This document shows, one piece after another, positions 1 through 34,963 of a stretch of DNA of 34,963 bases. Source of the DNA: Verrucomicrobiota bacterium. Its GTDB lineage: Bacteria > Verrucomicrobiota > Verrucomicrobiia > Chthoniobacterales > JAFAMB01. Position 1 is the stretch's first letter, and each line of letters opens with the position of its first letter. Made by a program: the position numbers and the translations under genes. The notes beneath the pieces were generated by a model, which did not search any database, was not told the origin of the DNA, and saw only the letters and a program-made list of their open reading frames with translations. The DNA is taken from the NCBI GenBank assembly GCA_019247695.1, contig JAFBAP010000106.1:1-34963 (forward strand), given 5' to 3'.

Positions 1-322
1 GGAAGAGTTGTGAGTTCGGAGTTCGGAGTTCGGAGTTCGGAGTTCGGAGTTCGGAGTTCGGAGTTCGGAGTTCGGAGTTCGGAGTTCGGAGTTCGGAGTG
101 GCATCCTGGGGGGTAGGTGCGAATGTCAAGTTCACAGTTGCCCAGGGTTTCTTAATCTGTGTCAATCTGTGTAATCTGTGGATGTATTCTCTTTTCTGCG
201 TTCTTCTGCGTGTTCTGCGGATCATTTCGTTTTCCGGCCGGGTGAGCGTGCACCTCGGGGGAGATCGGACCTGGTTCTACGACGCCTCCGAACCCCGAAC
301 TCCGAACGCCGAACCTCGCCCG
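1..322. repeat. Composite layered intergenic repeat, copy 1
   Basis: Gene-free stretch made almost entirely of short-period repeats. From left to right: a GAGTTCG tandem array (12-99); a 37-nt segment (91-127) that recurs at the right end of the window; an AATCTGTG-type block with 9- to 10-nt period (about 151-182); a TTCTGCG block (about 196-222); then mirrored CCGAAC units (about 289-316) and a final CCCGTTACCCGTTACGC that carries the stop codon of the exporter gene. The arms are inverted relative to one another (GAGTTCG on the left, CCGAAC on the right) around the TTCTGCG core, as in the copy at 21343-21728. No convincing gene is present; the open frames here are by-products of the periodic sequence. 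Confidence 0.85.
12..99. repeat. Tandem array of the 7-mer GAGTTCG
   Basis: About 12.5 uninterrupted, essentially identical copies of a 7-bp unit. This is the longest pure array of this unit in the window; elsewhere the same unit appears in 2 to 5 copies with variants such as GGGTTCG. Such perfect arrays usually change copy number by slippage, so length may vary between strains or be mis-assembled. Confidence 0.95.
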
Positions 323-9063: not shown

Positions 9064-9127
9064 ACGGTAACGCGTAACGCGTAACGGGTAGCGGGTAGCG
9101 GGTAGCGGGTAGCGCGTCACGGGTGGA
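9064..9127. repeat. 7-nt tandem repeat CGSGTAR (outer layer of the repeat family)
   Basis: Begins directly after the HNH stop codon: about nine degenerate copies of a 7-mer running CGCGTAA, CGCGTAA, CGGGTAG (four times), CGCGTCA, CGGGTGG. The matching inverse (CGCTACGCGTTACCCATTACGC) lies at 9493-9514 beyond the next gene, so the two arms flank the small conserved gene at 9208-9450. Confidence 0.85.
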
Positions 9128-9207
9128 GGAGATGAGCGGCGGCAAGCCCTTGGAACGAAAACCGCTTGCTCGGCAGTGCTCCCGGCATAAAACTGCTTTT
9201 GGCCCTG

Positions 9208-9450
9208 ATGATCCCGCAGATTCGAAAGCTCAAGTACGCGCAACCCTTTGTCGCCTTCTACCTCGAGTTGTCCAGTGGCCGGGTGATTAAGGTTGCCACC
9301 CCCGACCACATCGCTTTGGCTGAAGCCGGCCCGGGCCAGGTAGTTGTGCTCGACGATGACGGCACCTGGACTGCTTTGAGCGGTCTGCACCTGGCCAGCG
9401 TCGCGACTAATGATCCCCGGCCCAGGCGCCAGAACGGGCAAAACGCGTGA
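9208..9450 (+). CDS. Small conserved protein of unknown function
   Basis: 80 residues starting MIPQIRKLKYAQPFVAFYLEL, with a compact beta-rich pattern: SSGRVIKVATPDHIAL, then GQVVVLDDDGTWTALSGLHLASV. The protein has a small barrel-like look with alternating hydrophobic residues and no signal peptide. I recall similar short proteins in Verrucomicrobia but no assigned function. The frame is open upstream to 9166, but the upstream residues look non-conserved; ATG 9208 begins the apparent domain. It lies between the HNH gene and, on the opposite strand, smpB, and is bracketed by inverted arms of the intergenic repeat (9064-9127 and 9493-9514). Confidence 0.65.
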   Translation: MIPQIRKLKYAQPFVAFYLELSSGRVIKVATPDHIALAEAGPGQVVVLDDDGTWTALSGLHLASVATNDPRPRRQNGQNA

Positions 9451-9485
9451 GGTACCCCTTCCGCGAGGCCCAACCGAGCCGCCCG

Positions 9486-9520
9486 GCCACCCCGCTACGC
9501 GTTACCCATTACGCTTATTG
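9486..9520. repeat. Short repeat arm at the 3' end of smpB
   Basis: Contains CGCTACGCGTTACCCATTACGC (9493-9514), the inverse of the CGGGTAA-type 7-mers. The smpB stop codon (TAA, 9502-9504) lies inside it, so the last residues N-K-R-N-G of SmpB are written by repeat-like sequence. Confidence 0.7.
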
Positions 9521-12089: not shown

Positions 12090-12209
12090 GGGAGAGTGTC
12101 GGGTGTCGGGTGTCGGGTGTCGAGTAAAGTTCGGGGTTCGGAGATGGTCTTCCCGCCGTGGTCACCGCGTGAACTCTTCCACTGCACTCGACACCCGACA
12201 CCCGGCGCC
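12090..12209. repeat. Composite layered repeat, short inverted copy
   Basis: Fills the gap between the divergent tgt and PPK2 genes. Four tandem GTGTCGG units (12096-12124) lead to GTTCGGGGTTCGG, then a CCGCCGTGGTCACCGCG block in the inverse sense, and end in ACTCGACACCCGACACCC. The 17 nt at 12108-12124 and 12187-12203 are perfect inverse complements. The layer order (GTGTCGG outside, GTTCGG next, CGCCGTGG inside) matches the larger copies, but there is no TTCTGCG core. Confidence 0.85.
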
Positions 12210-12221
12210 CTACACTGGCGG

Positions 12222-13136: not shown

Positions 13137-13416
13137 TACCATTCCGACGGCCATGGAGGTAAAACAATGCTTTCTGCCGCCCCTTCAGCAAATCCAACCC
13201 GGCGGGCGGGCGTTTGTTAGGGAGGGCGTACAGGCGTGACGCCTTAGGAGGGCTCGATCGTGATTTTACGGTTACCCAGGGGGTAAAGCCCTGGGCTAAG
13301 TTCCCCCGGCCCGTTGCGCCTAAGACGGATTTAACGCCGTGCGGAGCATCCGGCAGCACCTCCTCCCGCCGGAATTCTACCGAACTATCTGTGTAAATGG
13401 TATAACAGAGAACGCT
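13137..13416. other. Gene-free stretch after ppk2 with a hairpin repeat
   Basis: No supported gene. Contains CCCAGGG (13275-13281) pairing perfectly with CCCTGGG (13289-13295) around GGTAAAG, inside a segment (about 13261-13325) whose GGTTACCCAGGG...CCCTGGGCTAA style resembles palindromic intergenic elements I have seen in Planctomycetes and Verrucomicrobia. No T-run follows, so it is not a simple terminator. A second weak feature is a run of CACCTCCTCCCGCC near 13357-13370. I found no promoter or start codon with a good ribosome site. Confidence 0.5.
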
Positions 13417-13580
13417 CGGTCACCCGGGACCGAACCCCGAACTCTTCCTCTTCCCGCCGTGGTCGCCGTGTTCCGCCGTGGCGCCGTGTGATTCTCCTCC
13501 GCTGTGCCCGCCGTGTGACCGAACTCCGAACCCCGAACCCCGAACGCCACCCGACACTCCTCACCCGTTCCCCGTTACCT
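13417..13580. repeat. Composite layered repeat, half copy
   Basis: Right-hand half of the family, written in the inverse sense: CCGAACCCCGAAC, then CCCGCCGTGGTCGCCGTG and related 9-nt units, CGCCGTGTGACC, CCGAACTCCGAACCCCGAAC, CACCCGACAC, and finally CACCCGTTCCCCGTTACC. The purC stop codon (TGA, 13561-13563) lies within the last layer, so the final residues of PurC are repeat-derived. The layer order is the same as in other copies. Confidence 0.8.
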
Positions 13581-18596: not shown

Positions 18597-18799
18597 GGGG
18601 TGTCGGTCGCACGGCGGGCACAACGACTGAGTTCACACGGCGAACACGGCGAACCACGGCGACCACGGCGGGAAGAGGGGGAAGGGGTTCGCAGCGGCTC
18701 ATTGGGGGCGAGTTGCCGGTGTCAAGCTCCTGTTCCGTGGATCCTTTTCTGCGTGTTCTGCGTGTTCTGCGGAGGATTCTGCAAACTTCTCACCCGTCA
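18594..18799. repeat. Composite layered repeat between two convergent genes
   Basis: Lies between the TPR gene and hrpB, both ending in it. Order: TAAGGGGTGTCGG (holding the TPR stop), a CGCACGGCGGGCACAACG block, 9-nt units CACGGCGAA / CACGGCGAC / CACGGCGGG (about 18633-18672), GGGTTCGCAGCGG, a spacer, the core TTCTGCGTG in three copies (about 18747-18771), and finally TCTCACCCGTCACCG holding the hrpB stop. Positions 18598-18676 match 34760-34838 at 74 of 79 bases, with no gaps. Confidence 0.9.
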
Positions 18800-21319
18800 C
18801 CGCCATTCGTGCTTCGGGTATTTGCGTTGCAGTTCCGGTTTGATCTTCGGATAGACCTCCGACCAGAACGTGGAGAGGTTCTGCGTGATTTGCATCGGCC
18901 GATGATTGGGCGCAAGCACGTGAATGAGGACCGGCACCCGGTTGGCGCAGATGTGAAGGGTCGAATTGATGCCGTAGAGATCCTGGATGCGGGCTGCCAG
19001 CACCGGGGATTGACCTTCGGTGTAAGTCAGCTTCGGGCGCCGCCCGTTCGGCAGTTCAAACCGTTCAGGGGCGAGTTGATTCAACGCCTGCAACTGAGGG
19101 GCCGAGAGCCATGTGCGCAGTACCGGCCAGACCGCGCGTTCCTTGATCTCCCGGTAACTGGTGGCGCCGTAGCAGATCTGGGTGATGAGGTACCGGCGCG
19201 CCTCGGCGTCGATCCTGTGAAGGCCGAGTTCCGGATACCAACCTGCCAGGCAGTTCAGGCGTGCGATCCATTGTTCGACCTCATGATTCCAGTGCACCAG
19301 GGTGCACCGGCCATCAAGGACCTCCTGGGCGAGCACTTCGGCGGCCGCGTCCGCTGAAGCAGGCTCACCCTTCGTGACGTGAAGCACCAGGTCCCGGAAT
19401 ACCTGTTCCCGCCGGCCGATCACTCGCCGGTTGGCCGGGTCAAAAGCCACCACCTCGCGATTCTCAAAATCTTCCGGGTACAATTCCTGCAGCCATTCCT
19501 CGCGCACCGCGGTAGCGAAAGAGAGCAGCACCAGCAATTCATCGTTGCGTCCCTGGATTTCGCGGATCTCGGCGGCAACAAACAGGGGGCTCTTCTGTAC
19601 CACGCTTTCACGGGCAAGCACGCCGTGCCGGCGATGCACCAGGTCGCATCGCAACGTGCCCGCATCGAGCCGGCGCGCCAGGTGATCGGAAAAACCTGCC
19701 AGCAGGCATTTGCCGAGCGCCTCGGCGTCAAATGCTTCCAACGGCCGTCCGATCCGAAGCTCCTCAATTTCCGCCAGGTCCAGAAACTGGTGATAAAGTT
19801 GTTTCACCTGCTGGGCAACCGCGTAGCGGATCCCGAGGCGACGGGCCTCATCGGCCCCCTGTTTGAGCGCGAACTGCCAGGCGCGGATCAGCACGAAAAA
19901 GTCGGACTCAGCTTCATCGGCGAACAGGAGTTCGCGATCGTGGTCCATCTGGCCGTTATCAGTTTTTTTGAGTAGGTAACGCTCCTGGGTCAGCGCGGCG
20001 ATCAGCGCCACGGCGCGCACACAGTCAAGTTCGTCGGCCATGATCAACATCCGGGCGTACCGCGGATGCACCGGAAACGAAAGCATGCGCCGGCCCAATG
20101 GGGTGATGTCTCCGCCGTGGCGGTGAAGGGCCCCCAGGTCCTGCAGGAGGTCAAGGGCTCGTTCCAACGAGCGCGGGTCCGGCGCCTCGATCCAGCCGAA
20201 ATGCTCGATGTCCTTCACCCCGCCGGCCTTGAGGTTCAGCACCACTTCGGCCAGGTCAAGCCGCTTGATTTCGGGTAAATCCTGAGGGCGCCGGTTAAGG
20301 TGATCGCGTTCGGACCACAGCCGGACGCAGCGGCCCGGAGCAGTGCGGCCTGCACGTCCGGCGCGTTGATCCGCCGAGGCATGGCTGATCTTCTCGGTGA
20401 TCAGGGTATTGATGCCGCGGTGCGCGTCGTACTTCGCGATTTTGGCCAGGCCGCTGTCGATGACAAGGGTGATTCCGTCGATGGTCAGCGAAGTCTCGGC
20501 GACGTTCGTCGAAACCACCACCTTGCGTCCGTCGTAACGGGCGACGGCCGCGTCCTGGGCCCTGTGCGAGAGGTCGCCGTGCAGCGGCAGGACGATACCG
20601 TCGAACTTCGACCGCTTGACCTCTTCGATCGTGCGCGCAATTTCGTAGGCGCCCGGCATGAAAATCAGCACGTCGCCGCCGTCGTTTTCCGCTTGGGAGA
20701 GGGCATCTGCCGCCAGTTCCCAGGGAGGCTCATCCACCACCTGCCGCTTCAGGTATTCGATCTCGACCGGAAAGGTGCGCCCCGCGGAGGTCAACAGTTC
20801 GCAGGGAGAGAGGTAAGCCTGCAGCAGATCCGTGTCGAGCGTGGCCGACATCACCACCAGCTTCAGATCCGGACGGTGGGCCTGCTGGATTTCCACCGCC
20901 CGCGCCAGCGCGATGTCACCGTAAAGGTGTCGCTCGTGAAATTCATCAAAGATAATGACGTCGACGCCTTCCAGGTCCGGGTCGCTGACCATCTGGCGCA
21001 GCAGGATGCCCTCGGTAACAAAACGGATGCGCGTCCGATCGGACGTTACGTTGTCCAGCCGGATCTGGTAGCCTACCTCCCGGCCGAGTTCGGCGCCGCG
21101 CTCCTGGGCCACGCGCGCTGCCAGCATCCGGGTGGGCAGACGGCGCGGCTGCAGGACCACGATCTGACCCTCCCCGGCCAGGCCGTAGTCGAGGATCATC
21201 TGGGGCACCTGGGTCGATTTGCCGGACCCGGTAGGCGCCTGCAGAATCAGGCGATTACTGCGTTTCAGGGCCGCAACCAGGGCCGGTTCAAGTTCAAAGA
21301 TCGGTAAACTACGCTCCAC
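18797..21319 (-). CDS. hrpB: ATP-dependent RNA helicase HrpB
   Basis: 840 residues, full length for the HrpB family of DExH helicases. Seen: motif I APTGSGKST (28-36), motif II DEFH (125-128), motif III SAT (158-160), motif VI QRAGRAGR (318-325), then the helicase-associated helical domain and the HrpB-specific C-terminal region ending YPKIKPELQRKYPKHEWR. The family has RNA-dependent ATPase domains but its cellular RNA target is poorly known. The start codon is GTG 21319; no ATG exists near the conserved N-terminus. The upstream gap to the divergent pseudouridine synthase is fully occupied by the largest composite repeat, so both promoters would have to lie in it. The stop codon sits in TGACGGGTGAG, an outer-layer repeat module. 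Confidence 0.95.
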   Translation of the reverse strand: MERSLPIFELEPALVAALKRSNRLILQAPTGSGKSTQVPQMILDYGLAGEGQIVVLQPRRLPTRMLAARVAQERGAELGREVGYQIRLDNVTSDRTRIRFVTEGILLRQMVSDPDLEGVDVIIFDEFHERHLYGDIALARAVEIQQAHRPDLKLVVMSATLDTDLLQAYLSPCELLTSAGRTFPVEIEYLKRQVVDEPPWELAADALSQAENDGGDVLIFMPGAYEIARTIEEVKRSKFDGIVLPLHGDLSHRAQDAAVARYDGRKVVVSTNVAETSLTIDGITLVIDSGLAKIAKYDAHRGINTLITEKISHASADQRAGRAGRTAPGRCVRLWSERDHLNRRPQDLPEIKRLDLAEVVLNLKAGGVKDIEHFGWIEAPDPRSLERALDLLQDLGALHRHGGDITPLGRRMLSFPVHPRYARMLIMADELDCVRAVALIAALTQERYLLKKTDNGQMDHDRELLFADEAESDFFVLIRAWQFALKQGADEARRLGIRYAVAQQVKQLYHQFLDLAEIEELRIGRPLEAFDAEALGKCLLAGFSDHLARRLDAGTLRCDLVHRRHGVLARESVVQKSPLFVAAEIREIQGRNDELLVLLSFATAVREEWLQELYPEDFENREVVAFDPANRRVIGRREQVFRDLVLHVTKGEPASADAAAEVLAQEVLDGRCTLVHWNHEVEQWIARLNCLAGWYPELGLHRIDAEARRYLITQICYGATSYREIKERAVWPVLRTWLSAPQLQALNQLAPERFELPNGRRPKLTYTEGQSPVLAARIQDLYGINSTLHICANRVPVLIHVLAPNHRPMQITQNLSTFWSEVYPKIKPELQRKYPKHEWR

Positions 21320-21342: not shown

Positions 21343-21728
21343 GGGGGCGGGTGTCGAGTAGGGTTCGGAGTTCGGGGTTCGGGGTTCGGAGTTCGGTCAC
21401 ACGGCGGCCGCAGCGGGTTTGGCGGGCACAACGTAAGAGTTCACACGGCGAACACGGAGAGCCACGGCGACCACGGCGGGAGGAGGAGAGTTCGGGGTTC
21501 GGAGTTCGGAGCGGCAGCATGGGCTCCGCCTCTCGGTGTGAAGTCCAGCAGTTGGGATTCTTTTTCTGCGTTCTCTGCGTGTTCTGCGGATGATTTAATC
21601 TTTCCGCCGTGGTCGCCGTGGCTCGCCGTGGTCGCCGTGTGAACTCTTACGTAGTGCCCGCCACACCCGCTGCGGCCGCCGTGTGACCGAACTCCGAACG
21701 CCAAACCCCGAACTCCGAACTCCGAACT
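21343..21728. repeat. Composite layered repeat, most complete inverted copy
   Basis: A near-palindromic element filling the gap between two divergent genes. Left arm: GGGTGTCGAG, several GTTCGG units (21361-21396), the 50-nt block 21398-21447, 9-nt units CACGGCGAC and CACGGCGGG, and another GTTCGG set (about 21488-21511). Centre: an unrelated spacer and TTTTTCTGCGTTCTCTGCG with TTCTGCG (about 21560-21588). Right arm: 9-nt units in the inverse sense (about 21603-21640), the 50-nt inverse block 21636-21685, then CCGAAC units to 21728. The two 50-nt blocks are inverse complements at 48 of 50 bases. The element ends on the base before the ATG of the pseudouridine synthase. It encodes no transposase. 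Confidence 0.92.
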
Positions 21729-22292
21729 ATGCTGATCGCGCTGCATAAACCATTCGGGGTGCTGTCCCGGTTTACGCCCGACGGATCGCCGAATCGAACC
21801 CTGGCGGATCTCGGGTTGCCGCGAGGGGTTTATCCGATCGGGCGTTTGGATGCTGATTCGGAAGGGTTACTGCTGCTGTCGGATGAGGCCGGCTGGAACG
21901 CCGCTTTGCTCGACCCGGAGCGCGGCCACGAGCGGGAGTATTGGGCGCAGGTGGAGCGGGTGCCGGGAGCGTCCGCCTTGCGGCGGCTGTGCGAGGGAAT
22001 CGTCATCCAGGGACGCCGGACCCGGCCGGCCGAAGCCTGGATTCTGGACCCGCAACCGCAGGTGCCGCCGCGGGATCCTCCCATCCGCTTCCGTATAAAC
22101 GTGCCCGAATGCTGGCTCGCTTTGGTCTTGCGAGAGGGCAGAAACCGCCAGGTACGCCGGATGACGGCGGCCGTCGGGCATCCGACCCTGCGGCTGGTCC
22201 GGGTGCGTATCGGCGGGTGCAGACTCGGCGACCTCCCTCCGGGGGAGTGGCGTGAACTGTCGTCGGAGGAACGCCGGCAGCTGGAGAGATGA
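21729..22292 (+). CDS. rRNA large/small-subunit pseudouridine synthase, RsuA/RluE-type
   Basis: 187 residues. YPIGRLDADSEGLLLLSD holds the catalytic Asp 41 of the RsuA/RluA superfamily, preceded by LHKPFGVLSRF (5-15). EYWAQV and REGRNRQVRRMTAAVGHPTLRLVRVRIG (about 136-163) complete the family core. No S4 domain is present, and the small size matches RluE (U2457 of 23S rRNA in E. coli), but the exact target cannot be fixed by sequence. ATG 21729 is the first base after the composite repeat; there is no Shine-Dalgarno, because the preceding sequence is CCGAACTCCGAACT. Overlaps nothing downstream; the ABC exporter starts 46 nt later on the same strand. Confidence 0.9.
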   Translation: MLIALHKPFGVLSRFTPDGSPNRTLADLGLPRGVYPIGRLDADSEGLLLLSDEAGWNAALLDPERGHEREYWAQVERVPGASALRRLCEGIVIQGRRTRPAEAWILDPQPQVPPRDPPIRFRINVPECWLALVLREGRNRQVRRMTAAVGHPTLRLVRVRIGGCRLGDLPPGEWRELSSEERRQLER

Positions 22293-34750: not shown

Positions 34751-34963
34751 CCCGGTAACGGGTGTCGGTCGCACGGCGGGCACAACGTAAGAGTTCACAC
34801 GGCGAACACGGCGGAACACGGCGACCACGGCGGGAAGACGGGAAAGAGTTCGGGACGGAAGAGAATGCCGCAAATGCTGCAAGCGGAAAAATGCCACAAA
34901 TGGAAGCGGGGAGTGTCGGGTGCCGAGTTCGGAGTGGCATCGTGGGGGGTGGGTGCGAGTGTC
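34751..34963. repeat. Composite layered repeat, left half, cut by the window end
   Basis: Begins directly after the GH43 stop codon: CCCGGTAACGGGTGTCGG, the CGCACGGCGGGCACAACG block, 9-nt units CACGGCGAA / CACGGCGAC / CACGGCGGG, GAGTTCGG, a new module AATGCCGCAAATGC...AATGCCACAAATGG (about 34864-34902), GTGTCGGG, and the 37-nt segment 34927-34963 that matches 91-127 at 34 of 37 bases. The layer order and the 79-nt block 34760-34838 (74/79 to 18598-18676) tie it to the family. Confidence 0.88.

Follow-up and report, generated by a model that had tools for sequence, protein, structure and literature searches.

A hairpin between hrpB and rsuA in a Verrucomicrobiota bacterium as a probable gene-less relic of nested inverted-array elements

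The window analysed here is a stretch of 34,963 nucleotides (contig JAFBAP010000106.1) from a Verrucomicrobiota bacterium. In this window, the genes of an hrpB-like helicase and of an RsuA-type pseudouridine synthase diverge from an intergenic space that is filled by a long inverted repeat (Table 1). A first-pass annotation had described two blocks of this repeat (21398-21447 and 21636-21685) as inverse complements at 48 of 50 bases, with further similarity outside them. We found exactly 48 of 50 matching bases, and the ungapped arms extend beyond these blocks (21363-21484 and 21599-21720), match at 114 of 122 positions (93%) and leave a spacer of 114 nt. When the window was scanned for inverted repeats of at least 30 nt within 1 kb, only four were detected, and the hairpin (21363-21720) is by far the longest of them. 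Folded as RNA, the hairpin stretch yielded -301.8 kcal/mol compared with -165.8 kcal/mol for shuffled sequences (z = -22.7). The annotation had also let the element fill the space between the two genes, had let it abut the start codon of the pseudouridine synthase and had denied it any coding capacity, and our data agree on all three points: two open reading frames inside the element are encoded by the repeats, and neither matches a Pfam family above the cut-off. In contrast, the TTCTGCG units that had been placed at the core are present but do not mark the centre of symmetry. They belong to a separate array module in the right half (21561-21596), and a second heptamer array (21488-21511) sits in the left half of the hairpin. 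The only Rfam match was to the microRNA precursor MIR1858 (21412-21670). With 74 bits it stayed below the gathering score of 137, and we did not accept this identity since any long hairpin might give such a match.

Table 1. Modules of the hrpB/rsuA element, its neighbouring genes and further clusters built from these modules elsewhere in the window
Feature	Position	Strand	Remark
hrpB-like helicase gene, left neighbour	18797..21319	-	GTG start
GGTGTCGAGT remnant, GGTGTCG-type heptamer	21350..21359	+	shared with the same-genus relative at this position
Outer heptamer array, left arm, GTTCGGA/GTTCGGG x4.9	21363..21396	+	S23 gene at L051 lies between arrays of this type
M2 module, left arm, CACACGGCGGCCGCAGCGGG...GAACACGGAGAGCCACGGCGACCACGGCGG	21397..21484	+	9-10-nt ACACGGCGA-type repeats, 88 nt; GxxExxY gene at L056 lies between similar arrays
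Inner heptamer array, GAGTTCG x3.4	21488..21511	+	
Core, GCGGCAGCATGGGCTCCGCC...GGTGTGAAGTCC...	21512..21560		one among several recurring core types
M3 module, reverse of ATCATCCGCAGAACACGCAGAGAACGCAGAAAAAG, ACGCAGA-type	21561..21596	-	GxxExxY gene at L055 lies between similar arrays
M2 module, right arm	21599..21686	-	
Outer heptamer array, right arm, CCGAACT x6	21687..21727	-	one base before ATG 21729
RsuA-type pseudouridine synthase gene, right neighbour	21729..22292	+	
Other same-module cluster	12-315		
Other same-module cluster	12096-12216		
Other same-module cluster	13454-13545		
Other same-module cluster	18613-18771		
Other same-module cluster	34797-34905		

The hrpB/rsuA hairpin is one of several hundred dispersed and nested repeat elements in this genome. 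A genome search with the element returned 205 matching pieces, and the heptamer pattern occurred 886 times, with no occurrence of the reversed control pattern. Mapping of seven array classes in 770 kb of contigs of this genome gave 92 clusters, which make up 2.9% of the sequence. Extrapolation suggests about 620 clusters per genome if these contigs are representative, but this number may be an overestimate since the contigs were chosen partly for carrying repeats. The arrays point inward: same-class neighbours less than 400 bp apart were arranged plus-minus in 70 cases and minus-plus in none, and in 0 of the 92 clusters did a minus array lie ahead of a plus array (plus left, minus right). The classes are also nested in a preferred order, as indicated by the outside-to-inside counts (A/T 14:1, T/H 6:0, G/H 7:1, M2/H 42:10, M3/M4 20:1). 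Listed from the outermost, the usual sequence is ATGCCACAA, GGTAACG, GGTGTCG, M2/GTTCGGA, M3 and M4, and ATGCCACAA occurs also in some cores. The number of units per array varied between 1 and 17. The arrays do not qualify as quadruplex-forming heptamer repeats, in which each unit has a run of at least three G, since their units are GTTCGGA and GTTCGGG.

The annotation had made its reading as a mobile element depend on further copies of the element or on conserved pairing of its arms. No second full-length copy was found in the genome, where the best other match covered 217 of 386 nt at 89% identity, and module maps were therefore used for comparison. No two of the mapped loci shared an identical module order. 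However, inverted copies with the same modules were detected at L003, L004, L008, L017 and other loci, and two inverted M2 arms recur at 31 loci, so that the reading is not refuted on these grounds. The contig of the window and many others start or end in such clusters, which indicates that these repeats break the assembly. At 13165-13407 lies a member of a second dispersed repeat family (TAATACCATTCCGACGG...ATGGTATAAC, about 230 bp), of which the genome holds many copies (82-94% identity). Here it adjoins a GTTCGGA/M2 cluster, and it is missing from the same-genus relative at that site.

The high identity of the two arms had been interpreted as recent formation or arm-to-arm correction, and this interpretation was not supported. 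Over the 31 loci, the identity of M2 arms was 0.909 within a locus and 0.898 between loci (permutation p = 0.018), and the left arm at hrpB/rsuA is more similar to the right arm of another locus (0.954) than to its own partner (0.932). Because the excess within loci is only slight, arm-to-arm correction was rejected as main cause. Strong correction is not supported, and local correction, if there is any, has a minor effect. Local copying between arms can happen, as can be seen at L005, where the same internal duplication is present in both arms. The high arm identity is the ordinary conservation of a family that is homogeneous throughout the genome. We also looked for two fixed arm lineages, which would be expected if the element always moved with both arms, and rejected them: heptamer-side and M3-side arms are not separate lineages (p = 0.18).

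Comparison with relatives indicated that the site itself is variable. In a genome of the same genus (G001, contig C118, JAFAUY010000132.1), a different inverted-array element lies between hrpB and rsuA. It has ATGCCACAA arms and a 190-nt core, and only the GGTGTCGAGT stub is common to both genomes. The divergent gene pair was found in L057, L099 and L082, and in the latter two, which belong to more distant relatives, the gap measures only about 50 bp and is free of arrays. Content was likewise switched at most other intergenic gaps that were compared between the two same-genus genomes. At 9066-9507, compared with the relative over 9103-9502, both carry GGTAACG-type arrays, and only the present genome has an open reading frame between them. 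This frame (about 9208-9447, about 79 aa, MIPQIRKLKYAQPFVAFYLELSSGRVIKV...) has no family match above the cut-off. At C88:14226-14725, an outer ATGCCACAA shell is common to both genomes and the inner GTTCGGA/M2 shells are limited to the present one, which constitutes direct evidence of nesting. No target-site duplication was visible at the pairs of sites compared between the two genomes, and no clean recent empty site of the element was seen among them. At an S23 locus on contig C80 of the present genome, the contigs of the relative break and do not allow a clean comparison. In the counterpart of 26776-26826 on contig C203 of G001, we observed a palindromic insert (GCCTGCATCGCCC...GGGCGATGCAGGC), and the same insert occurs again in G001 at a site that is empty in the present genome (C88:940). 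These inserts appear to be a further mobile palindrome family.

Environmental bacteria very commonly carry S23/four-helix-bundle proteins and GxxExxY proteins of the nuclease-like PD-(D/E)XK type, and, to our knowledge, neither has been assigned a role. In the present genome, both GxxExxY genes (TIGR04256, PF13366) and three of the four S23 genes (TIGR02436, PF05635) lie inside inverted arrays of the same modules, the fourth S23 locus (L053) being left out of this count. The S23 genes are bracketed by GTTCGGA arms (L051), by GTAACGA arms (L052) and, at the divergent L054, by ATGCCACAA arms with a pitch of about 9 nt, which is an exception to the 7-nt rule. The GxxExxY genes have M3 arms (L055) and M2 arms (L056). 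The hrpB/rsuA element combines inverted GTTCGGA arrays with ACACGGCGA/ACGCAGA arrays, and these modules recur at L051, L055 and L056. Its outer and inner heptamer arrays are of the kind that brackets S23 genes, and its 9-10-nt arrays (ACACGGCGA, ACGCAGA) are of the kind that brackets GxxExxY genes.

This arrangement is not restricted to a single genome. In a phylum sample of 145 genomes, S23 matches were found in 103 and GxxExxY matches in 69. An inverted flank score of at least 18 was reached by 31 of 70 S23 loci, compared with 0.6% of mismatched flank pairs, and by 47 of 69 GxxExxY loci, compared with 1.8% of mismatched flank pairs, and such flanks were seen at none of 30 rsuA control loci. 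About 40% of the S23 loci and about 25% of the GxxExxY loci in this sample scored below 16. The period of S23 arms is 7 nt, with self-match values of 0.67 (lag 7) and 0.64 (lag 14) over a background of 0.24. GxxExxY arms, typically TTAACCACAGAGGACACAGAGG, follow a looser period of about 9 nt, with a self-match peak of 0.42 at lag 9. Array pitch and protein family are strongly associated (Fisher p = 2e-15), and since several genomes carry both kinds of array, the pitch goes with the protein family and not with the genome. Plasmid copies from other phyla extend this pattern, with heptamers around S23 genes in Nostoc, Geminocystis, Azospirillum and Gemmatirosa and 9-mers around GxxExxY genes in Bacteroides, Bernardetia and Gemmatirosa; some plasmid loci had no clear arms. 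The neighbours of these plasmid copies are linked in function, for instance the two ribonucleotide reductase subunits and two Cmr genes. At L344, L346, L353 and L358, an S23 or GxxExxY gene was inserted between functionally linked genes, the split pairs being cas6/cas4, ribonucleotide reductase subunits, cas10/cmr3 and fabD/fabG. The D...ExK nuclease signature of GxxExxY was kept in 67 of 68 pattern-found reads, and the exception was a chance match in a wrong frame.

In an Akkermansia-like genus, different states of an S23 element can be seen at one site. Two conserved genes of G031 enclose an intact S23 gene (121-aa frame), which is flanked by AGTTAAT heptamer arms. The S23 frame of G114 and G025 stops after 19 codons, with the AGTTAAT arms kept, and G097 has an empty site that lacks both the S23 gene and the heptamers. 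This series of intact, decayed and empty sites is the clearest support for the idea that gene-less inverted arrays are remnants or non-autonomous forms of gene-carrying elements. At the hrpB/rsuA locus, no open reading frame with a family match is present between the arrays, so that the element can be at most a gene-less derivative. Since its ends match the arrays that bracket S23 and GxxExxY genes, it is probably a leftover of those elements. Taken together, we consider it probable that the hrpB/rsuA element is a nested, gene-less composite relic of intergenic inverted-array elements. Several observations speak against the relic reading: we found no autonomous copy with the exact layout of M2, GTTCGGA and core, the cores do not resemble what simple deletions inside the known gene-carrying copies would leave, neither movement nor a target-site duplication was observed, L054 departs from the 7-nt rule, and part of the S23 and GxxExxY loci in the phylum sample have low inverted scores.

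How such elements move is inferred. A gene-carrying element would be inserted as one unit (array, gene, inverted array), with a preference for existing palindromes, or sites beside them, and for intergenic space. The S23 or GxxExxY nuclease-like protein would recognise its own array and act there, and it might also mobilise gene-less copies in trans. Homologous recombination among the many like-oriented arrays could then shuffle arms and cores between loci.

A classical MITE or foldback-type DNA transposon, which would have inverted ends made of subrepeats, an unlinked DDE-type transposase and a target-site duplication, is an unlikely alternative. Dispersed inverted-end elements with empty sites would be in line with it, and the architecture resembles that of eukaryotic foldback elements with their long ends of short subrepeats. 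However, no target-site duplication was seen at the compared pairs of sites, the side test (p = 0.18) gave no sign of two fixed arm lineages, and the same arrays were found to enclose S23 and GxxExxY genes rather than known transposases. The first-pass annotation had called the element MITE-like. Its dispersal, its non-coding nature and its terminal inverted repeats justify this term, but a strict MITE is unproven as no target-site duplication was observed.

Somewhat less probable still is a selected regulatory structure, either a promoter module of hrpB and rsuA or a bidirectional terminator or insulator formed by a long RNA hairpin. A consensus scan detected neither a sigma-70 promoter nor a U-tract terminator-like site inside the element, and relatives carry other content or only about 50 bp between the two genes. 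The very stable RNA fold would suit such a function. Clusters were also enriched at convergent junctions (22/53 compared with 18% expected, p = 8e-5, on orientation counts from a rough ORF-based gene call), but purging of insertions near promoters would predict this enrichment equally well, and the hrpB/rsuA site is divergent, which is the rarer kind (6/53). Most likely, the element at this site is a tolerated passenger and not a conserved regulatory element.

A purely mutational origin, in which arrays expand by slippage and are transferred to the opposite arm by template switching within the locus, is very improbable. The hundreds of dispersed copies with the same arm of about 88 nt and the 70:0 polarity would be left unexplained, and arms from different loci resemble one another almost as closely as the two arms of one locus. 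These processes may contribute, and the varying copy number of the arrays, the duplication shared by both arms of L005 and the slight excess of identity within loci are consistent with that, but as sole cause they are disfavoured. Least credible is mobilisation of a REP/BIME-like element by a RAYT (Y1 transposase), which would account for intergenic palindromes at high copy number: this genome has only two Y1_Tnp matches, one of them IS200/IS605-like, neither is bracketed by arrays, and RAYT was rejected as mover for this lack of association.

Beyond the reading of the hrpB/rsuA hairpin as a composite relic, a more general proposal, for which we see the chances as about even, is that S23 and GxxExxY genes define two unrecognised superfamilies of one-gene intergenic mobile elements. 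They would have tandem-array ends with a protein-set pitch (7 nt for S23, about 9 nt for GxxExxY) and would insert into each other, and their gene-less descendants, including the hairpin, would form about 3% of the genome. The fixed link between protein and array pitch offers a direct handle on the role of both protein families, and the widespread 'CACAGAGGACACAGAG' and heptamer intergenic repeats should be treated as ends of elements and not as unexplained simple repeats. In the literature searched, the coverage of which left out most subscription journals and preprints, we found no paper tying S23 or GxxExxY genes to inverted arrays and no description of the array-gene-array arrangement with its distinct pitch. 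Heptamer arrays in convergent pairs (Xanthomonas, Nostoc) and IVP-coding rRNA insertions are already known.

Foldback (FB) elements of Drosophila have long inverted ends which consist of short subrepeats in variable number. The architecture of the ends is similar here, but FB elements are eukaryotic and linked to a transposase, and no homology is implied. REP/BIME elements with RAYT are also intergenic palindromic repeats of high copy number, but their units are much shorter, and no RAYT is bracketed by arrays in the present case. The G-rich heptameric repeats of Xanthomonas and Nostoc (Rehm et al., 2015; PMC4692102) likewise form 7-nt intergenic arrays, and in Xanthomonas 70-75 cases per genome were reported in which two convergent arrays form an inverted repeat. 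That study focused on the quadruplex-forming GGGAATC, did not report a general link to mobile elements, and its text contains no mention of S23 or four-helix proteins. In contrast to GGGAATC, GTTCGGA is not a G4 motif, the shells described here are nested and 9-nt arrays are added. The TAACTGA heptamers of Beggiatoaceae (PMC4679880) are abundant, intergenic and patchily shared with cyanobacteria and Bacteroidetes; the authors considered mobile carriage and favoured a regulatory role. Both heptamers are abundant between genes, but TAACTGA was reported to form direct repeats that lie upstream of genes, only one case being inverted, whereas the arrays described here are inverted. Finally, rRNA insertions, including those that code for IVP, mostly occupy the top or the base of stem-loops in the rRNA (PMC11270868). 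The S23/IVP protein (PF05635) of 23S rRNA intervening sequences belongs to the same small protein family as the proteins described here, but the S23 copies described here lie between protein genes. The gene-less hrpB/rsuA element lies outside any rRNA gene, between hrpB and rsuA, which rules out an rRNA intervening sequence at this locus.
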